From positions 186,001 to 250,000 of the forward strand of contig CAIRCN010000006.1 in NCBI GenBank assembly GCA_903877135.1: a DNA stretch of 64,000 nt, written 5' to 3'. Shown here in pieces: positions 4,409-64,000 of this stretch. Both the position numbers and the translations under genes were made by a program. Numbering within the stretch: position 1 is the stretch's first letter; each line of letters starts with the position of its first letter. The stretch comes from an uncultured Opitutia bacterium (lineage in GTDB: Bacteria > Verrucomicrobiota > Verrucomicrobiia > Opitutales > Opitutaceae). The notes below the pieces were generated by a model that ran no database searches, was not told the origin of the DNA, and saw only the letters and a program-made list of their open reading frames with translations.

Positions 4409-6012
4409 ACTTCGGCAGACGCGAGAAAATCGGCCTGGGCTTCTTTCTGCTCTGCTACCTGACGGCGGTTTATTGGGTGTGGACGCGGTCTTCGCCGCTG
4501 ATCCGCGAGCGGCCCGTCACGATCCGGATCGCCCACTGGCAGATCGAGGCAGGCCCGCCCGATGGGATCGATGCAATCATCAGGCGCTACGAGGCGCTGC
4601 ACCCGCGCGTGAAGGTGGAGCAGCAGCTGATCCCCGGCATCGTTTACAAGCAGTGGCTGCGCTCGAACCTCGCCGGCGGCACCGGCGCCGACATCATCGA
4701 GTGGGGGCCGTGGATCGAGGGCGTGCGCGACGTGCCGGCGCGCTACTTCGAGCCCATAACCGCGGCGCTCGCCCTGCCGAATCCCTACAACGGTGGCACG
4801 CCGCTCGAGGGCGTGCCCTGGCAGCAGACATTCAAGGACGGCCTCGGGGGCCAGCGCACCGACTCGCCAGACCCGGGCGAGATTTTCGGCGTGACGCTCT
4901 GCGAGGTGTCGGTGCGGCTGTTCTGTAACCGTGAGCTGCTGCGCGAGGTCACCGGCTCTACGCGAATCCCGCAGACGTTTGACGACATGCGCCGGATCTT
5001 TGGACAGCTCGACGCCTACAACCTTCGCTCCGGCCGGCAGCCGGTCATGGCGCTGGCGGGCGCGAAGGACAACAACGAGTGGCTGCAGGAATACTTGCTC
5101 ATGGGTGTGACAATGGGCCTGAACTTCACGCTCGACGATCCCGGCAGTCTGTTTCTTGCCAACCGCCAAATCCTCGCGGCCTATCTGGAGGGCCGGTGGA
5201 ATTTCCGCCGGCCTGAGGTGAAGGCGGGCTTCGAGCTGATGCGCGAAATCGGTCGCCACATGAAGCCGGGTTTCCAGCAACTCAGCCGCGACGAAGCCAC
5301 GCGGGAGTTCATGCACGGCGACGCGCTATTCATCTTCACCGGCACATGGGACGCCACCAGCCTGCGGCGCCTAGCGTCGTTCACGATCGATGCGTTGCGT
5401 TTCCCCCAGCCGACGAAGGATGACCCCGTGGTTGGCCGCTACACCATCGGGCGCTTTGCCGACGGCGGGGGCGTCACCGCCATGGCCATGCACCTCAACA
5501 AAGCTAGCCCGCACAAGGCCGAGACGCTCGATTTCATGCGCTTCATGACGAGTATGCAGGGTTCGCAGCTCTTCACCGACGGTAGCGGCTGGCTGCCGGC
5601 CACCCTCGGGGTGAAAATCCCGCCGGAGATCGTGTCGTTCCTCTCGCCGCAGGATGGCTATGCGCTGTGCCAACCCTATTCCATCATCGGCTCGAACGCC
5701 ACTATGCAGTTCTCTCGCAACATGCACCTGCTCACCGGTGAGCACGGCTCTGTGGACAAGTTCACCGCCGCGCTCGATGAGGTTATGCCCGAGGCGGTGC
5801 GCTCCGATCTGCAGTCCGAGCTGCGCAGCCTGCTGATGACGATCCGCACGCAGGACGGCCGCACGATCGCCCATGCGCAGTTGAGCGGCGCGGCGGTCGC
5901 CGGTCGTAACCACGCCGTCCTGCGGGAAGTGATGGAGTGCGGGGAAACGATTTCGGAAGCCACGGCGCTCCAGATGCGCTGCCAATTGGAGCAGACCGCC
6001 CCAACGAAATGA
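4405..6012 (+). CDS. Extracellular solute-binding protein (family 1-like), copy 2
   Basis: A 535-residue paralogue of the protein at 1891. It has an N-terminal membrane segment ([18 protein letters not shown]), then [21 protein letters not shown] and [14 protein letters not shown]. The mid-region [18 protein letters not shown] corresponds to FIFTGTFDSTSLRRLAPF of copy 1. It is a sugar-type ABC substrate-binding protein by family resemblance, held by an N-terminal helix and not by a lipobox. No transport permease is encoded next to it, so the membrane components must lie elsewhere or be shared. Conserved core with divergent loops suggests the two copies bind different ligands; this is inference. 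Confidence 0.8.
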
Positions 6013-6031
6013 GCACGGCGGCCACGCGAAG

Positions 6032-6202
6032 CTACCCGTTCAGTTTTTGCGCGAGTTTCCAGCCGGCGTAAACGCCCAAGATGCTGCCGACGCCGCTCAG
6101 CACGAAGGACCACAGGAAACTGAGCCCGAACACGCTGTCGCCGAGCGCCCAGAACGCGTAGCTGCCCAAGGTCGTGCCAAGAAGAATGCACAGTTTGGTC
6201 AT
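6032..6202 (-). CDS. Small two-helix membrane protein
   Basis: A 56-residue protein starting at the ATG at 6202. Two hydrophobic stretches ([18 protein letters not shown] and [22 protein letters not shown]) are joined by a short acidic turn, and the C terminus is basic (KLAQKLNG). The second helix is rich in small residues in a Gly-zipper style. An in-frame ATG at 6259 would add a non-hydrophobic leader and was not chosen. The gene diverges from pckG. The family is not recognised and the function is unknown. Confidence 0.55.
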
Positions 6203-6367
6203 GCATGCAGATTGGGCGGTTGGCCGGCACATGGCGATTTCATAACGCGGCCACGGCAATCGGGGTGCATTTCTGCCAAGATTTGGGTGAAGAATCGCAG
6301 GTTATACGCAGCGCCGTCGCCGCAAATGCGGTTTACTCGCCCCTGCATATCATCTTCTGATTCTCCC

Positions 6368-8194
6368 ATGACCACTCGCGATGTTTCCCAGCCGCTCAGC
6401 CACAATCCCAACCTGCTGAAATGGGTTGAAAAAATGGCGGACCTCACCAAACCCGCCGCTATCCACTGGGTCGATGGTTCCCAGGAGGAATACGACACCC
6501 TCTGCGCGCAGATGGTCGCGAGCGGCACGTTCATCAAGCTCAACGAAAAGCACTGGCCCGGGTGTTACTACGCGCGCTCCGATGCGAGCGACGTTGCCCG
6601 CGTCGAGGACCGCACATTCATCTGTTCGCTCTCCAAGGAGGCGGCGGGGCCGACCAATAACTGGGTGCCGCCGTTCGAGATGCGCAAGAAGCTGAAGAGC
6701 CTGTTCGCCGGCGCCATGCACGGTCGCACGATGTATGTGCTGCCGTTCAGCATGGGGCCGATCGGTTCGCCGATGGCGCAGATTGGCGTGGAGCTCACCG
6801 ACTCGCCCTACGTCGTCGCCAACATGCGCATCATGGCGCGCATCGGCCTGCCGGTTTACGTCGAGATCGACAAGGGGGAGAAACGCGTCGTGCCCTGCCT
6901 GCACTCGGTCGGCGCGCCGCTTGCGCCCGGTCACAAGGACGTGGCGTGGCCCTGCAACAAGGAGAAATACATCGTCCACTTTCCCGAGACGCGCGAAATC
7001 TGGAGCTACGGCTCCGGCTACGGCGGCAACGCGCTGCTCGGCAAGAAGTGCTTCGCCCTGCGCATTGCGTCGAACATAGCGCGTGACGAGGGCTGGATGG
7101 CCGAGCACATGCTCATCCTCGGCCTCGAGGATCCGCACGGCGAAAAGACCTATGTGGCCGCCGCGTTTCCCAGCGCCTGCGGCAAGACGAATCTGGCGAT
7201 GCTCATCCCGCCGGCACATTTCAAGCGGAAGGGCTGGAGAGTCTGGACGGTCGGCGACGACATCGCGTGGATCAAACCCGACGCCAACGGCCGGCTCCGC
7301 GCGATCAATCCCGAGGCGGGCTTCTTCGGCGTGGCGCCCGGCACCTCGCAGAAAACCAACCCGAACGCGATGGCCGCGCTCTCGAAGAACACTATCTTCA
7401 CCAACGTCGCACTCACACCCGATGGTGGCGTCTGGTGGGAAGGCCTGACGGGCGAGCCCGCCGAATGCCTCGACTGGCAGGGCAAACGCTGGACGCCCGA
7501 GATCGCGCTCCAGACCGGGGCGAAGGCGGCACACCCAAACGCCCGCTTCACCGCGCCCGCCTCGCAGTGCCCGACAATCGATCCGGCGTGGGAAGACCCC
7601 GAGGGCGTGCCGATCAGCGCGTTCATCTTCGGTGGGCGCCGCGCGACGACGATGCCGCTCGTCTATCAGGCGTTTAACTGGAGTTCAGGTGTCTACACCG
7701 GCGCAACGATGGGCTCGGAGATGACTGCAGCCGCCGCGGGCACGATCGGCAAGGTGCGCCGCGATCCGATGGCGATGCTGCCTTTCTGCGGCTACCATAT
7801 GGGCGACTATTTCCGCCACTGGATCTCGATGCAGAAAAAACTCAGCGAGACCCCGCGCATTTTCCACGTGAACTGGTTCCGCAAGGATGCCGACGGCAAG
7901 TTTCTCTGGCCCGGTTTCGGCGAAAATATGCGCGTGCTGAAATGGATCGTTGACCGCGCCCGCGGCCGGGCACTCAGCTGCGAGACGCCCATCGGTTGGA
8001 TGCCGCACTACGAGGACATCGACTGGGCCGACTTGGATTTTCCGCGCGCGCAATTCGAGCAATTGCAGGCTTTCGACCGCGCCGCGTGGCGGGCTGAGGT
8101 GATCGGCCACGAGGAGCTCTTCCTCGACCTCCATGATCACTTGCCGAAAGAAATGGTCTACGAGCGTGAACTGCTGATCTGTCGCATGGGCTGA
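6368..8194 (+). CDS. pckG: Phosphoenolpyruvate carboxykinase (GTP)
   Basis: Converts oxaloacetate and GTP to phosphoenolpyruvate, GDP and CO2, the entry step of gluconeogenesis, in the cytosol. The product has 608 residues, the usual size of the GTP-dependent class. The P-loop [13 protein letters not shown] carries the GTP-class cysteine (Cys271) and Lys273. The second nucleotide motif VGDDIAW, the substrate loop FGGRR and the segment NPNAMAAL are also present. The start at 6368 was chosen because the protein then begins just before the conserved N-terminal fold ([17 protein letters not shown]). The frame stays open upstream to 6047, but that part resembles no protein. It is monocistronic and ends at a hairpin facing a convergent gene. 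Confidence 0.96.
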
Positions 8195-58133: not shown

Positions 58134-58580
58134 TCAGCCGAGCCAGGGCCGGGTCGCGCCGGGATCGCGCTCCTCGTCATACTCAATGTAGTCGAACATC
58201 GTCTCGATGGGTTTGGCCGCGAGGCAGGATCCGAGGATGCGGCGGAGGAGGATTTCACGGCCGGCGTCGCGCCAGCCGCGTTTCATCATGAAACCGTTCC
58301 AGACCTCACACTCATCGTCAGTGCGCGGGCCGCCCTGCTCGTGGCACCAGGCGAGGATTTCTTCGTCGGTGCCACCTTGAAGCGTGCGGGCGACGAGATC
58401 GGCGTGTTTGACGCGGAGAAAATTGCAGCAGCGGCTGTCGAAGCCGATGCCGATGTTTTTGCGGTAGTCTTCGGGGAGCTGGCCGGCGGCCTGCAGGCGG
58501 ATTTTGTCGAGCATGCGGCCGAAATAAACGAGTCGGCCGGTTTTGGCGTAGCAACTGCGGAGTCCGGGAACGGCGGGCAT
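58134..58580 (-). CDS. DUF5069 protein
   Basis: A 148-residue protein of the DUF5069 family. FGRMLDKIRLQAAGQLPEDYRKNIGIGFDSRCCNFL is the conserved core, and GGTDEEILAWC follows. The product is cytosolic and small, with paired Cys (CC) at the core. It is the first gene of the operon with gluconokinase. The function of the family is unknown. Confidence 0.75.
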   Translation of the reverse strand: MPAVPGLRSCYAKTGRLVYFGRMLDKIRLQAAGQLPEDYRKNIGIGFDSRCCNFLRVKHADLVARTLQGGTDEEILAWCHEQGGPRTDDECEVWNGFMMKRGWRDAGREILLRRILGSCLAAKPIETMFDYIEYDEERDPGATRPWLG

Positions 58581-58658: not shown

Positions 58659-59318
58659 TCAGTGGTCGGGCGAGATCATGCCCTGGCGCAGGGCGTAGCG
58701 CACGAGTCCGGCGACGTCGTGGATGTCGAGCCGAGCCATCAGGTGCATGCGGTGGGTCTCGATGGTCTTGATACTCAGGTTGAGCAGGAAGGCGATCTCC
58801 TTGGAGCTTTTGCCCTCGGCGATGAGCTGGAGAATTTCGCGCATCCGCGGTGTGAGGGATTTAAAAATTTCGACGCGGGGGTTGGCCAACTGGTCCCGGT
58901 GGCGCGCGAGCAGATTCTGCGGGAGCGAGGAACTTAGGTAGATTTCGCCGCGGCGCACGGCCTCCAGCGCGAGGGAGAGCTCGGTGGTGGCGGCATCTTT
59001 GACGAGATAGCCGGCGGCCCCCGCCGCGAGCGCCTGCAACACATAATCGTCACCGGCGTGCATTGAGAGAATGAGCACCTTGACGCCGGGATTCTCCCGG
59101 GTGAGGCGTGCGGTGGCGTCGAGGCCGTTGAGTCCGGGCATCGAGATGTCCATCACGACGACGTCGGGCGCGGCGGCGGCGATCGCGGCGAGGGCTTCGC
59201 GGCCGTCGCTGACTTCGGCGACGACTTTGACGCCGGGCAGGCGCTCCAGCAGGCTGCGGATGCCGCCGCGCACGAGAGCGTGGTCGTCGGCCAGCAGGAC
59301 TGTGAGTTCTTTCGGCAT
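58659..59318 (-). CDS. NarL/FixJ-family response regulator
   Basis: A 219-residue two-component regulator. The receiver domain (about 6-125) has the acidic pocket LLADDH, phosphoacceptor Asp57 (VVMDIS) and Lys in GYLVKD. The LuxR-type helix-turn-helix (about 152-212) reads LTPRMREILQLIAEGKSSKEIAFLLNLSIKTIETHRMHLMARL. The ATG at 59318 was chosen; the codon at 59324 is TTG. It begins 9 bases after the stop of a HisKA_3-type kinase, its obvious partner. The target promoters are unknown; the divergent NAD-linked flavoprotein gene is a candidate. Confidence 0.9.
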   Translation of the reverse strand: MPKELTVLLADDHALVRGGIRSLLERLPGVKVVAEVSDGREALAAIAAAAPDVVVMDISMPGLNGLDATARLTRENPGVKVLILSMHAGDDYVLQALAAGAAGYLVKDAATTELSLALEAVRRGEIYLSSSLPQNLLARHRDQLANPRVEIFKSLTPRMREILQLIAEGKSSKEIAFLLNLSIKTIETHRMHLMARLDIHDVAGLVRYALRQGMISPDH

Positions 59319-59327
59319 GGGCAAACG

Positions 59328-61256
59328 CTAGGCTGCCGGACCAGGCGGGAACAGGGGAAAAACCGCCTCGACACGCGTGCCCTGGCCGGGGGAGGAGCGC
59401 AAGGTGAAGGTGCCGCCGGCGAGTGAGAGGCGCTCGTCCATGCCGAGGAGGCCGAGTTTGCCTTTGCGTTCGGCTTGCAAGCGCACGGCCTCGACGTCGA
59501 AACCGCGGCCGTCGTCGCGCACACTGAGCCGCAGCACGCCATCCTCCTGGTCGACGGTGACAATGATGGATTGGGCGCTGGCGTGACGGAGGGCGTTGGT
59601 GAGGGCTTCCTGTGCGATGCGAAAGCAGGCGATCTCGATGGCGGGGTCGCAACGGCTCATGGCGGGGTCGGCCAGCAGCCGTACGCGGGGCGACTGGACA
59701 TGGGCCGGTGGCTGCTCCACCAGCCAGTGGAGCGCGGGCACGAGTCCGAGGTCGTCGAGCAGCGGTGGCCGCAGGTTGAGGGTGAGCGAGCGCACCTGCG
59801 CGAGAAGGCGGTCGAGCAGGGCGACGGCCTTCTGAAACTGCGCGACGACGCGGTCGGGTTCGGTATCCAGCGCGGCAGACTGGAGGTGCATTTTGGTCGC
59901 TGTGAGCACCTGGCCGATCTCGTCGTGCAACTCGCGGGCGAGATGGCGGCGCTCGGTTTCCTGGACTGCGAGCAGGCGGCGCGAAAGCTGTTGGAGCCGA
60001 AGGGAGGTGCGGTCGAGCTCGGTTTGGTGGTGCTTGAGTTCGGTGATGTCGATTTGCGAGCCGCGCATGCAGCGGGGGCGTCCGGTCTCGTCGCGATCTA
60101 GGTCGGCGCGCAGGAGAAACCAGCGCCAGGTGCCGTCGCGGTGGCGCAGGCGGTATTCGGCGGTGTAGTCAGGCCAGGATTTGGCGAGGTAGCGGGCGCG
60201 CAGGGCGAGAATGCGCTGGCGATCCTCTGGATGGCAGCGGTCGAGCCATTCGCCGGGCTCGTTGCGGATCTCGTGGTCGGCGTAGCCGAGCTGGGCTTTC
60301 CAGCGCGGGGAGAGGTAGGTTTTGTCCGTGGCGGGTTCCCACGACCACAGGCCGATGCGACCGGCCTCAAGGGCGAGGTTGAGCTGCTGCTCGCTTTCGC
60401 GGAGGGCGGAGAGGGCGCGCTGGCGCTCGGCCAGCTCGGCAGCGGCGCGGGCGTTGGCGAGTTGCAGGTGGTGGCGGTCGATCGCGAGTTCGATGCGCAG
60501 TGCGAGTTCGCCGTAGTGGTGCCCGTGTTTGAGCAAGTAGTCGCTTGCGCCGAGCTTGAGAGCGGCGACGATCACTTCCTCGTTGCCTATGCCGGTGACA
60601 AGGATGAACGGCGTCTGCAGGCCCAGGCGGCGCACCTCGGTCATCAGTTCGAGGCCGTTCAGGCGGGGCAGGAGAAAATCGCAGATCAGGAGGTCGAAGG
60701 CGTGATCCATCTTCAGCCGCGCCAGCGCCGACTCGGAGTCATGCTCGTGCTCGATGAGGAGGTGGGGCGCAGTGCGGGAGAGGTGCTCGACGACGAGGGC
60801 GGTGTCAGAGGGATCGTCGTCGATCACGAGGATGCTGCGGGGCGTGGCGCGGTGGGGCAGGGGGCCGGAGAGTTGTTGGCGGCGCTCAACCACCTCGCGC
60901 AGCTTGGCTGGCAGCGTTTCGAGGTAACCGGGCCGCTTGGGCACGTAGTCGTGGGCCCCGAGCCGCAGGGCCTGGGTGGCGAGTTCGCCGTCACCCACGC
61001 CGGTGATGAGCACGACGGGCGTGTCGACGCCGTCTTGTATGAGCGTGCGCAGCACCTCGACGCCATCCAGGTCAGGCAGGAGCTGGTCGAGCAGCAGCAG
61101 GCGGTGCTGCCGCTGGCGGGCGCGGACGAGGAAATCTGCTGCGCTGTGCACAATTTCGAGCGTGAAATCCGGCGCGCAGCGGGCGAAGTGGGCGCGGGTG
61201 AGATCCGCGTCGGCCGGGTTGTCCTCGGCGTAAAGCACGGCAATGGAGGCGCTCAT
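59328..61256 (-). CDS. Soluble REC-REC-PAS histidine kinase (NarX-like)
   Basis: A 642-residue protein without membrane segments. Two N-terminal receiver domains have phosphoacceptors Asp57 (LLLLDQLLPDLDG) and Asp193 (LLICDFLLPRLNG). A PAS/PAC fold follows (about 290-410; LEAGRIGLWSWEPATDK, RHRDGTWRWF), then a HisKA_3 domain with His444 (RRHLARELHDEIGQVLTATKMHLQ) and a HATPase (AQEALTNALRHASAQ, DGRGFD, GLLGMDERLSLAGGT). Receivers placed before the kinase suggest it takes phosphate from another kinase, probably the membrane kinase encoded 45 bases upstream. ATG 61256 gives a receiver start at once; 61292 is an alternative. Confidence 0.9.
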   Translation of the reverse strand: MSASIAVLYAEDNPADADLTRAHFARCAPDFTLEIVHSAADFLVRARQRQHRLLLLDQLLPDLDGVEVLRTLIQDGVDTPVVLITGVGDGELATQALRLGAHDYVPKRPGYLETLPAKLREVVERRQQLSGPLPHRATPRSILVIDDDPSDTALVVEHLSRTAPHLLIEHEHDSESALARLKMDHAFDLLICDFLLPRLNGLELMTEVRRLGLQTPFILVTGIGNEEVIVAALKLGASDYLLKHGHHYGELALRIELAIDRHHLQLANARAAAELAERQRALSALRESEQQLNLALEAGRIGLWSWEPATDKTYLSPRWKAQLGYADHEIRNEPGEWLDRCHPEDRQRILALRARYLAKSWPDYTAEYRLRHRDGTWRWFLLRADLDRDETGRPRCMRGSQIDITELKHHQTELDRTSLRLQQLSRRLLAVQETERRHLARELHDEIGQVLTATKMHLQSAALDTEPDRVVAQFQKAVALLDRLLAQVRSLTLNLRPPLLDDLGLVPALHWLVEQPPAHVQSPRVRLLADPAMSRCDPAIEIACFRIAQEALTNALRHASAQSIIVTVDQEDGVLRLSVRDDGRGFDVEAVRLQAERKGKLGLLGMDERLSLAGGTFTLRSSPGQGTRVEAVFPLFPPGPAA

Positions 61257-61301
61257 GGGGTGATGTTCGGCGGGGAGGGTGGTCGACGGCAATCGGCAAA
61301 C

Positions 61302-63299
61302 TCACACCGGGCGTGCAGAAGAAGACTTTGGCAGTTGCAGGACGAACCGGGCGCCTTCGCCAGGCTTGGCCTCGGCGCGCAGCGAGCCGCCAAGCCGGTC
61401 GGTGATCTTTTTCGAGATGGCCAGCCCAGCGCCGGTGCCCTCGAACTCCGCGGCGCTCACGAGGCGCTGGAAGAGTCCGAAAATGCGGTCGTGGTGCCGC
61501 ATGTCGAAACCGATGCCGTTGTCGCGCACCGTGACGAGCCAGCCGTCGGCGGTCTCGCCGGTCTCGATGCTGATGCATGGCGGCCGGGCGTGGCGGCTGT
61601 ATTTGAGGGCGTTGTCGAGCAGGTTGGCCAACACCTGTTCGAGGCCGCGCCTCCACGTCCGCATGCGGGTGGCATGAAATATGGTGGCGATCTCCGCGCC
61701 GTGTTCGCGGATTTGTGGTTCGCGCTGCTGTAGGAGCGCTTGGATTAGTGCGGGCAGGTCGACGGATTCGGTTCGCGCCGACTCGCCGTCGAGCTGGGCG
61801 AAGTCGAGTGTGTCTTGGATGAGTTGCTCAAGGTTGACTGAGGCGGCGGCGATCTGCGCCGCACAGAACCGCCCCCGCTCGTCAATGGCGGTGCCGTGAT
61901 GCTGGCTGAGTTCGCGGGCGTAGCCGCCGATGCCGCGCAACGGGGCCCGCAGGTCGTGGGCAACGGTGTGAGCGAAGCAGCGCAGGGTGTCGTTGTGCCG
62001 GTGCAGCGCCGCTTCAGCCTGGCGCCGGCCGGAGAGGTCGCGTGCCACGAGGAGATAGACCCCGAGCAATATGGCCGCGACGGTGATTGCGGCGGCGGCG
62101 TAGGTAAACAGCGCCTGCGTGCGGCTGGCCTCGCGCGTGGCGGCCTGCTCCGCCAGCTGGGTGCGGGCCAGCGACCGGAACGTGTCGGCCTCCTCCCGGA
62201 TTTGCTCCATGAGGCGGCGGCCACCACCGCCGGCGACGAGCCGTCGGGCCTGTTCCAGTTGCCCCACCTGGCGCAGATTGATGGTGTAGCGGAGCGCGGT
62301 CAGCCGGGCGTTGACGAGCGGAACGAGGCGGGTCACAAGCTGCTGCGGCTGGGGATAGTCTGCCGTCAGGCGCAGCAGCAACTCGAACCGACGCCGGCTC
62401 TTCGCGGTCGCCAGACGGCAAGGTTCGAGAAACGACGCCTGGCCGGTCAGGATGTAACCGCGCTGGTTCGACTCGGCTTCCGCGAGGTTGGAGAGCGCGT
62501 CCTCCAGCACGGTCAGCATGCGCTGAGTGTGCTCGACCCACCGGCTCGACTCGATGAACTTCACCGTGGTGTTGTAGGACAGCAGGCCCATCAACACGAC
62601 AACGCCAAACGCAGCACCGACGCCGGCGGACAGTTTTTTCTCAAGGGGAATCCCCACGTCCGGCTGGAGTGGATCGCGGGTGTGGGTAAACTCTGCTGCC
62701 ATGGCTGCGCAGAGCAGTCCGGTAGCCAGCACGACAAAAAGCGCCGCCGTTGTGACTGCCATCGAGGACGTGTCAAAGGCGAACAGCACGGGTGCACCCG
62801 CCATGAAACCGACGAGGAACACGCCGCCGACAATGCCCACCACGATGGCTAGGGAGCAGGCCAGCACATCGCCCGCCCAGATTTTTCCACGCCACAGTAG
62901 GAAGGCAAATCCTGTGGCAATCAGCAGGAAACAGAGGGCGCTCACCGAGGCCATGTGCATGCTGGCCAAGGCAGGCACGCGCTCCCGGAACGAGATAAAA
63001 AATTCATCGACGCCCCAATCCTGCCCCAAGCTGAACTCGAGCAGCCGAGTGAAACAGATCGCGGCAAGCAGACAAGTGGTGCCTCGGGTGAGGATGCGCC
63101 GGCGGGCGGGAGGTTTGGCCAGAAGCATCAGGGTCAGTCCCGCGAGGGAGAACGCGATGGCGGTGTTGGGCGCCATCACGGTTTCCCTATGGGCGATCAA
63201 AATCACTGTGGATAAACGCCCCAGCCAGCAGGCCAGACAGGCGAGTCCTACGAACAGGGTGATGGCTCCGGCCAAAAAGGATGCCTGCTTGAGATTCAT
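61302..63299 (-). CDS. Membrane histidine kinase with CHASE3
   Basis: A 665-residue sensor. About six to seven N-terminal helices (residues 8-245) form a MASE-like membrane module. A CHASE3-like sensor follows (about 246-395; SSRWVEHTQRMLTVLEDALSNLAEAESNQRGYILTG), then one helix (about 398-418), a HisKA with His448 (CFAHTVAHDLRAPLRGIGGYARELS) and a HATPase (LANLLDNALKYSRHA, DNGIGFDMRHHDRIFGLFQRL, GTGAGLAIS), phytochrome-like in style. It has no receiver of its own, which suits phosphotransfer to the REC-REC kinase downstream. ATG 63299 was chosen; 63407 adds an Arg-rich leader. The signal is unknown. Confidence 0.9.
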   Translation of the reverse strand: MNLKQASFLAGAITLFVGLACLACWLGRLSTVILIAHRETVMAPNTAIAFSLAGLTLMLLAKPPARRRILTRGTTCLLAAICFTRLLEFSLGQDWGVDEFFISFRERVPALASMHMASVSALCFLLIATGFAFLLWRGKIWAGDVLACSLAIVVGIVGGVFLVGFMAGAPVLFAFDTSSMAVTTAALFVVLATGLLCAAMAAEFTHTRDPLQPDVGIPLEKKLSAGVGAAFGVVVLMGLLSYNTTVKFIESSRWVEHTQRMLTVLEDALSNLAEAESNQRGYILTGQASFLEPCRLATAKSRRRFELLLRLTADYPQPQQLVTRLVPLVNARLTALRYTINLRQVGQLEQARRLVAGGGGRRLMEQIREEADTFRSLARTQLAEQAATREASRTQALFTYAAAAITVAAILLGVYLLVARDLSGRRQAEAALHRHNDTLRCFAHTVAHDLRAPLRGIGGYARELSQHHGTAIDERGRFCAAQIAAASVNLEQLIQDTLDFAQLDGESARTESVDLPALIQALLQQREPQIREHGAEIATIFHATRMRTWRRGLEQVLANLLDNALKYSRHARPPCISIETGETADGWLVTVRDNGIGFDMRHHDRIFGLFQRLVSAAEFEGTGAGLAISKKITDRLGGSLRAEAKPGEGARFVLQLPKSSSARPV

Positions 63300-63435
63300 C
63301 GCTTGCCGGGTAAGCTGGACCCGCTGACCCGAGGCGACAAGCCTACGAACCACGCCACGCTCAAATATTAATAGACCGGATGATGATTGCTTCTGGACAA
63401 ACACCACCGTGGGCGCGTGAACTGGGCGTCAAACC

Positions 63436-64000
63436 ATGCAGGAATCCGGTCTCGCCAGTTCCATGAACTCAACCCAGGAAACCAATCGAACCCACGGTGC
63501 ACATACCTTGCGCGCCGACGTCGAATCTTTCTACCATCTGTCGCACGGCGGGCATACGGGCAAAGCCTGCCAGGGCACAGCGTGTTTCGCGGCCCGCCAC
63601 TTCAATCCTGGGCGCTGGGCCGAGGCGATGCAGAACGATCCCCGCGTCTACTGTCTCGGCGAGTGTTTTGCGGGCCCGGCGAAGGGCCAGACCAAGCCGC
63701 GTCCGCCGGTGCGCGTGAGTTCGCGGGAAGGCATCGTGCTCGGCCGGCTGGCCGGTGGTCGGGTGCGCGCGCTCGACGCCTACCGGCAGCAGGGCGGCTA
63801 CGCTGCGCTGGCAGCGGCGTTAAAGAACACCACCGAGGCGGTGCTTGCTACGGTGGACAAATCCGGCCTGCGCGGCCGGGGCGGCGCGGGCTTTCCGACG
63901 GGCCGCAAGTGGCGCGCTGTCGCGTCGCAGCCCCCGGGCCAGAAATATGTCATCGCTAACGCCGACGAAGGCGACGCCGGCGCCTACATTGACCGCTACC
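63436..64000 (+). CDS. NADH-dehydrogenase-like flavoprotein (NuoF/HoxF/FdsB type), N-terminal part
   Basis: Open to the window end, about 188 residues visible. A thioredoxin-like [2Fe-2S] region (CQGTACFAARHF, then CLGECFAGP) is followed by the FMN/NAD start of the NuoF-like fold (SGLRGRGGAGFPTGRKWRAV, KYVIANADEGDAGAYIDRY). The spacing CxxxxC and CxxxC of the Fe-S part is that of NuoE-like domains fused to NuoF, as in HoxF/FdsB of NAD-linked hydrogenases and formate dehydrogenases. ATG 63436 was used; ATG 63463 is possible. The gene diverges from the two-component system across 136 bases, including an AATATTAAT stretch that could be a -10 element. Confidence 0.8.
   Translation, partial: MQESGLASSMNSTQETNRTHGAHTLRADVESFYHLSHGGHTGKACQGTACFAARHFNPGRWAEAMQNDPRVYCLGECFAGPAKGQTKPRPPVRVSSREGIVLGRLAGGRVRALDAYRQQGGYAALAAALKNTTEAVLATVDKSGLRGRGGAGFPTGRKWRAVASQPPGQKYVIANADEGDAGAYIDRY

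Follow-up and report, generated by a model that had tools for sequence, protein, structure and literature searches.

A membrane histidine kinase beside a tandem-receiver HisKA_3 kinase suggests a two-kinase cascade next to formate dehydrogenase genes in an Opitutaceae genome

Organization of the HK1-HK2-RR locus

We analysed a 64,000-nucleotide stretch of DNA (hereafter the window; contig CAIRCN010000006.1 of assembly GCA_903877135.1, positions 186,001 to 250,000) from an uncultured Opitutia bacterium of the family Opitutaceae, whose genome is a 4.2-Mb draft of 87 contigs. Near the end of the window lie three consecutive signalling genes encoding a membrane histidine kinase (HK1), a soluble histidine kinase (HK2) with two response-regulator receiver domains (REC1 and REC2) at its N-terminus, and a NarL-type response regulator (RR) [Table 1]. 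From comparisons across families and phyla, we propose that these genes may form a two-kinase cascade in which HK1 phosphorylates REC1 and so changes the output of HK2 to RR, and we put the probability of this reading at roughly 0.6. The start and stop codons of the window genes were checked, the domains were taken from a Pfam search, and the four window frames are not chance frames, because all of them score over the Pfam cut-offs. A first-pass annotation of this DNA had described a membrane kinase without a receiver, a REC-REC-PAS kinase and a NarL-type regulator, lying in a row with 45 and 9 bases between them and divergent from a NuoF-like gene, and had advised looking past position 64000. 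The domain anatomy was confirmed by Pfam and the gaps with ATG starts; the gene running rightward from 63463 has a Complex1_51K FMN domain and, followed beyond the window, is complete (499 aa) and the first of five clustered genes that encode two formate dehydrogenases (FDHs).

Read from an alternative in-frame start (GTG at 63407, adding 36 aa), HK1 has CHASE3, HisKA and HATPase_c domains and no receiver. Its hydropathy profile shows several N-terminal hydrophobic segments before CHASE3 and a further one (437-455) before HisKA and HATPase, and it carries the phosphoacceptor histidine of HisKA-type kinases and an HATPase domain with N, G1 and G2 motifs. HK2 consists of two Response_reg domains, PAS_3, HisKA_3 and HATPase_c, with the active sites of both receivers complete in this genome, and RR consists of Response_reg and GerE. 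HisKA_3 kinases are usually paired with NarL-type regulators. Among the 252 family genomes compared, close full-length HK2 orthologues occur only in G141 (70% identity) and G296 (55-56%), the next-best near-full-length match being 33% (G237), and the RR orthologues of these two genomes are 77 and 69% identical. HK2 and RR adjoin in each of the three genomes that have a close HK2.

Table 1. Coordinates of the signalling genes, their domains and the neighbouring features (window positions unless another stretch is named).
Feature	Position	Strand	Basis
RR, NarL/FixJ-type response regulator (Response_reg + GerE), 219 aa	58659..59318	-	Pfam
HK2, soluble REC-REC-PAS-HisKA_3-HATPase kinase, 642 aa	59328..61256	-	Pfam
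REC1 of HK2; E11, D12, D57, T85 and K107 all kept; likely HK1 phosphoacceptor	60861..61247	-	
REC2 of HK2, residues 142-244; acidic pair, D193, T221 and K243 kept	60525..60833	-	
HisKA_3 phosphoacceptor (His) domain of HK2, motif RELHDEIGQ	59760..59954	-	
HK1, membrane CHASE3-HisKA-HATPase kinase	61302..63299	-	ATG start
CHASE3 sensor domain of HK1	62139..62546	-	Pfam, E 4.1e-33
fdhB1 upstream block common to G168, G164 and G360	63391..63436	+	alignment vs shuffles
fdhB1, NuoF-like subunit of FDH1, runs past the window end (L003:6463-7962)	63463..64000	+	
DUF5069 gene, which also flanks the FDH slot in relatives	58134..58580	-	
Examples of the DUF5069-DUF3016 slot	L003:6463-10649 (FDH1); L070:11255-13666 (G141, YdeP-type); L076-L089; L122-L134		

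HK1-type kinases beside tandem-receiver genes

Two REC-derived peptide patterns, made from the three HK2 orthologues, were scanned over one genome per species (84,980 species) and returned 18 loci, one of which (L094) is G141 itself. Six of the other 17 (L095-L100), belonging to Myxococcota, Chloroflexota, Methylomirabilota, Pseudomonadota, Bacteroidota and Ignavibacteriota, encode a protein that carries the two receivers in tandem, and each of the six has an HK1-type kinase directly beside the tandem-REC gene or one Rcp-like receiver gene away from it. The cores of these kinases are 58, 48, 46, 49, 43 and 41% identical to HK1 (that of L097 being only a 120-aa piece at a contig end); the other kinase cores of the same loci, including those of the tandem-REC proteins themselves, reach 22-37%. 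The receivers keep their order across phyla, REC1 being 42-54% identical to the other REC1 domains as against 33% between REC1 and REC2 within HK2, with the exception of REC2 of L097, which is 44% identical to REC1. None of the other 11 loci encodes a protein that matched the two receiver probes in tandem, and their HK1-type kinases stay below 40%, the best (38%, in L101) lying beside an Rcp-like receiver.

The same association was met within the family. Two tandem-REC loci from the HK2 search (L022 and L024) are both preceded by an Rcp-like gene and a kinase with a core 40% identical to HK1, which brings the HK1-type neighbours to 8/8 tandem-REC loci examined from the HK2 searches, a count that leaves out the candidate in G257 (query 3-427). 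In the reverse search, the three best matches to HK1 in the family genomes besides itself were L091 and L092, each followed by an Rcp-like and a tandem-REC gene, and L093 (32% identical over almost the whole length), which is followed by an Rcp-like frame of 98 aa. In an IQ-TREE phylogeny of 23 kinase cores, which omits L097 (partial), L022 and L024, HK1 groups with five of the tandem-REC neighbours (100/99) and is sister to an Anaeromyxobacter kinase (98/98), the family kinases L091 and L092 standing just outside this group (91/83); the program warned of long branches in control rows and of unusual make-up in the L099, L100 and L092 rows, not in that of HK1.

The domains that follow the receivers vary. 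The outputs in L096-L100 are HisKA kinases or HD-GYP, GAF or HATPase domains, the REC-REC unit of L096 heading a GAF/HD-GYP protein without a kinase domain; only HK2 and its two orthologues showed a HisKA_3 output. We consider it an even bet that REC1-REC2 is a portable signal-input cassette with a dedicated kinase class, spread over seven phyla with varied outputs, wired here to a HisKA_3/NarL pair and liable to decay in REC1 once the partner kinase is lost. The idea that REC1 arose by fusion from the single Rcp-like receiver seen in the family modules L072, L073 and L075 was rejected: REC1 is 42-54% identical to REC1 domains of other phyla with the tandem order shared, and its identity to Rcp-like receivers, as far as BLAST aligned them in the examined loci, is only 28-33%. 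L095 was likewise rejected as an HK-REC-REC-HK fusion, the first ~460 residues of its 1135-aa frame being out-of-frame and the kinase being encoded in an overlapping frame (5107-7029). As side observations, the HK1-type kinases of L096 and L099 have an extra HATPase_c_2 domain, and the genes before the tandem-REC proteins of these loci (L096:6270-10315, L099:3372-6116) resemble RsbR/RsbS/RsbT/phosphatase stressosome genes by reading of the open reading frames (ORFs).

Receiver integrity follows the presence of HK1

We then compared the five active-site residues of REC1 [Table 1] between proteins with and without an HK1-type neighbour. Of the proteins that have such a neighbour, 12/12 (from 11 loci, counting our own) keep the quintet intact, and the two orthologues lacking HK1 both have it altered: G141 carries D12S and D57E, and G296 carries T85G and K107R together with D193L, T221A and K243A in REC2. 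Fisher's test, which takes no account of relatedness, gives p 0.011 for the quintet (12/12 vs 0/2; 0.022 before L022 and L024 were added) and p 0.016 for loss of the phospho-accepting aspartate (2/4 vs 0/24 receivers). For comparison, one survey gives 2.0% as the share of receivers in general that lack the Asp site (PMC12632262). G141 and G296 can thus be looked upon as natural variants in which the HK1-REC1 link appears broken.

Several points speak against reading so much into REC1. There are only two orthologues without HK1, and they are related to each other; REC1 of G296 keeps the acidic pair and D57, and REC2 of G141 is intact. Further, one of the search patterns spans REC1 residues 11 and 12 (E, and D or S), by which the presence of these two residues was partly selected for in L095-L100, although D57, T85 and K107 lie outside the pattern and L091, L092, L022 and L024 were found without it.

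How HK1 might act on HK2

In the cascade that we propose, HK1 would sense its signal via the membrane region and the CHASE3 domain, autophosphorylate at the HisKA histidine and then phosphorylate REC1 of HK2. The tandem receivers would act as an allosteric input module that shifts the kinase/phosphatase balance of the HisKA_3 core, which may also read its own PAS domain, and HK2 would in turn determine how far the NarL-type RR, whose gene lies downstream, is phosphorylated. The sequences themselves show the domains, the kept catalytic residues, the association of HK1-type kinases with tandem-REC genes and the changed REC1 of the HK1-less orthologues; we infer the direction of phosphotransfer, the allosteric step and the pairing of HK2 with RR. 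REC1 is the likely acceptor for HK1, and likelier than REC2, because REC2 is without the second acidic residue in 10/11 outgroup proteins.

That the N-terminal receivers of HK2 are switched by a second kinase had been suggested in the first-pass annotation, and the suggestion is supported by the adjacency across phyla, the kinase tree and the integrity of REC1. Its description of the three genes as a three-part phosphorelay is refined here, since the cascade does not call for a literal relay. In a literal relay, the phosphoryl group would pass from the HK1 histidine to the aspartates of REC1/REC2, from there to the HisKA_3 histidine of HK2 and finally to the RR aspartate, and every one of these His and Asp sites is present in this genome, with the active sites of both receivers complete. 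However, HK2 has its own ATPase domain, Pfam finds no Hpt domain in HK1, HK2 or RR, and the REC-REC unit of L096 heads GAF and HD-GYP domains only, so the unit needs no downstream histidine; for these reasons an allosteric switch is likelier, and a literal relay seems improbable to us.

The allosteric cascade gives a concrete picture of how a soluble kinase bearing receivers at its N-terminus could be wired, from HK1 through REC1 to the output of HK2. If the portable-cassette reading is true, receiver decay in genomes might serve as a record of lost partner kinases. In the literature on N-terminal receivers of HisKA_3 kinases, on multikinase networks and on tandem or stressosome-linked receivers, we did not find the HK1/tandem-REC module described, as judged by titles and the beginnings of abstracts.

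Gain or loss of HK1

Against the cascade, HK1 is absent from the HK2-RR loci of G141 and G296, so that only one genome is known to have all three genes in this order, and a gene for a ~90-aa membrane protein occupies its place in both. No close HK1 was matched elsewhere in these two genomes at E <= 1e-50; weaker HK1-like kinases, 34-38% identical to the HK1 core, are encoded there (found with the L095 core and read in L149-L151, L153 and L154) and could act in trans. Scans for sigma-70 promoters and for terminators gave no site above chance, so spacing is what speaks for co-transcription of HK1, HK2 and RR.

These facts lend themselves to another explanation, namely two systems side by side, with HK2-RR as an independent pair and HK1 as a recent or accidental neighbour acting elsewhere. 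The pair is indeed kept where HK1 is missing, with the 90-aa membrane gene at its place, and no close HK1 orthologue was found among 252 family or 387 phylum genomes (overlapping sets, the best 2-4 candidates scored per genome), the nearest one of similar full length being 32% identical (G222). Yet HK1 falls in the very group of kinases found beside tandem-REC genes of other phyla, and the active-site residues of REC1, complete here, have changed in each of the two orthologues that lack HK1. We therefore regard a chance neighbourhood as unlikely and keep to the cascade from HK1 through REC1.

Whether HK1 was gained or lost can be read in two ways. The occupant of its place in both relatives suggests that HK1 may have replaced the 90-aa membrane gene, i.e., a gain in this genome, whereas the altered receivers argue for an ancestral HK1 that would have been lost twice. 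The nearest kinase in the tree comes from Myxococcota. A foreign origin of HK1 was not borne out by base composition, its G+C (0.651) and third-position value (0.80) being unremarkable. The membrane protein itself has only a weak partial match in this genome (40%, contig C74). Its gene was seen at L070:10921-11193(-) in G141 and L081:8826-9083(-) in G168, beside the FDH slot described below, and upstream of HK2 in L071; an alignment of the upstream regions of the YdeP-type genes showed mainly this small gene and was not used as evidence.

The divergent formate dehydrogenase genes

The five genes read divergently from HK1 are, in the order of L003, fdhB1, fdhA1, a nuoE-like gene, fdhB2 and fdhA2, followed by a DUF3016 gene. 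Both catalytic subunits are Fdh-alpha proteins (TIGR01591, 790.6 bits for fdhA1 and 813.2 for fdhA2; cut-off 666.25), each with one CH and one RGQNNVQG motif, which we take to be the catalytic Cys-His and Arg active-site residues, and an FdhD gene is present elsewhere in the genome. A separate gene for a NuoE-like subunit, the gamma subunit of FdsGBA-type trimers, precedes only fdhB2 and none was seen for the first enzyme (FDH1); the N-terminus of fdhB1 (~100 aa, no Pfam match) holds four cysteines, presumably in NuoE-like spacing. The second enzyme (FDH2, made up of nuoE-like, fdhB2 and fdhA2; L003:10824-15797) lies between FDH1 and DUF3016 and has a C-terminal 2x[4Fe-4S] ferredoxin part in fdhB2, a layout which in our estimation resembles that of electron-bifurcating HydABC-like enzymes, and FDH2 is possibly a ferredoxin- and NAD-linked enzyme. 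None of the 10 examined relatives with FDH1 in the slot described below carries FDH2 at this position. On the other side, 3' of RR, there are genes for DUF5069, a P-loop kinase (AAA_33 and SKI matches, gntK-like by reading), a penicillin-amidase-family protein and uracil phosphoribosyltransferase. An Rfam search of L003 returned no match.

In relatives, the slot between DUF5069 and DUF3016 holds either the NAD-linked FDH1 (fdhBA) or an FdhF/YdeP-type oxidoreductase [Table 1]. FDH1 at >=78% identity occurs in at least 21 of the 252 family genomes, our own included and three of them partial, among the matches listed; 14 of the 20 other FDH1 genomes were fetched, and the FDH1 pair lies between DUF5069 and DUF3016 in 10 of these and not in four (L083 ends soon after). 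The slot enzyme of G141 (TIGR01701, 946.5 bits; cut-off 582.15) has matches in 87/252 genomes at E <= 1e-100 and none in our own genome at the same threshold. Besides G141, 20 such genomes, including the ten closest, were fetched, and the YdeP-type gene is in the slot in 13 of them (two with ~3 kb before DUF3016) and not in seven, one of which has DUF3016 only. The two enzymes never occurred together (overlap 0 for 21 and 87 of 252; hypergeometric 8.6e-5, uncorrected for relatedness and draft gaps), and both kinds are found in different species of seven genera (g1, g2, g5, g6, g80, g100 and g107). This pattern fits an exchange in place, with one function carried by two enzyme types. In Pseudomonas putida, deletions showed that two FdhF/YdeP-type enzymes, which Fdh4A of M. 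extorquens resembles, act in formate tolerance and oxidation (PMC10308882). The sharing of one slot by two FDH kinds never found together lends independent genomic support to formate oxidation by FdhF/YdeP-type enzymes. Among the titles listed from an incomplete body of literature, no description of a displacement between FDH1 and the YdeP type was found, and the combination of verrucomicrobial YdeP and FDH gave one paper, on chlorine chemistry (PMC9751292); we make no claim of priority.

Does the cascade control formate oxidation?

The first-pass annotation had proposed that the system may control redox metabolism such as formate or hydrogen oxidation. Genes of formate oxidation do adjoin; hydrogen oxidation is rejected, both catalytic subunits being Fdh-alpha, and control of the divergent gene is only weakly supported. 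In favour of such control are the divergent arrangement itself and the position of HK2-RR beside an FDH-type molybdoenzyme in both genomes of genus g1 studied, though the enzymes are of different kinds (FDH1/FDH2 here, FdhF/YdeP-type in G141). However, HK1, HK2 and RR were found in none (0/23) of the stretches searched in relatives with an enzyme in the slot (10 FDH1, 13 YdeP-type), and in G296 the HK2-RR pair adjoins a BON-domain gene, its FdhF/YdeP-type gene being elsewhere on the chromosome. By ORF reading, there is no FDH-like protein around one near relative of HK2 and RR (L074). The intergenic sequence also counts against control: in 63290-63470 a single inverted pair was found, of 9 nt with a spacing of 62 nt, and the block upstream of fdhB1 is common to three relatives that lack the system there (G168 27/30, G164 23/30 and G360 23/30, six single-base shuffles each reaching at most 20), the other 11 genomes in this test giving nothing above the shuffles. 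Control of the FDH operon by the cascade thus appears doubtful, and FDH genes as the target of RR are, on balance, not indicated by genome comparison. This emphasizes the caution to be exercised in reading the function of a regulator from its divergent neighbours, as the FDH slot is widespread without the kinase genes.

Comparison with known systems

FDH1, which we liken to the FdsBA or M. extorquens FDH1 type, agrees with NAD-linked Mo/W FDHs in having an Fdh-alpha with a NuoG-like Fe-S N-terminus and a NuoF-like FMN subunit, and differs in having no separate NuoE gene. The FdhF/YdeP-type enzyme (TIGR01701) in the slot of the relatives is encoded by a single gene, unlike the fdhB1-fdhA1 pair.

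For the signalling genes, the closest parallels within the family are the four-gene modules L072, L073 and L075, which encode a PAS kinase, an Rcp-like single REC, a REC-PAS-HisKA_3 kinase and a NarL-type RR. They have a receiver-less upstream kinase, a REC-PAS-HisKA_3 kinase and a NarL-type RR in the same order as HK1, HK2 and RR, but one of the receivers is encoded separately and the second kinase carries just one REC, and their kinases fall outside the HK1 tree group. The tandem-REC loci L095-L100, L091, L092, L022 and L024 share with our locus an HK1-type kinase near a REC1-REC2 protein, and L096-L100 differ from it in that no HisKA_3 output was seen. Among characterized systems, the cascade would be comparable to multikinase networks such as that of GacS and a second sensor kinase (PMC5992135), in which one kinase reportedly acts upon another that in turn feeds a regulator; here the two kinases would meet at the paired N-terminal receivers of the HisKA_3 kinase, whose partner would be a NarL-type regulator.

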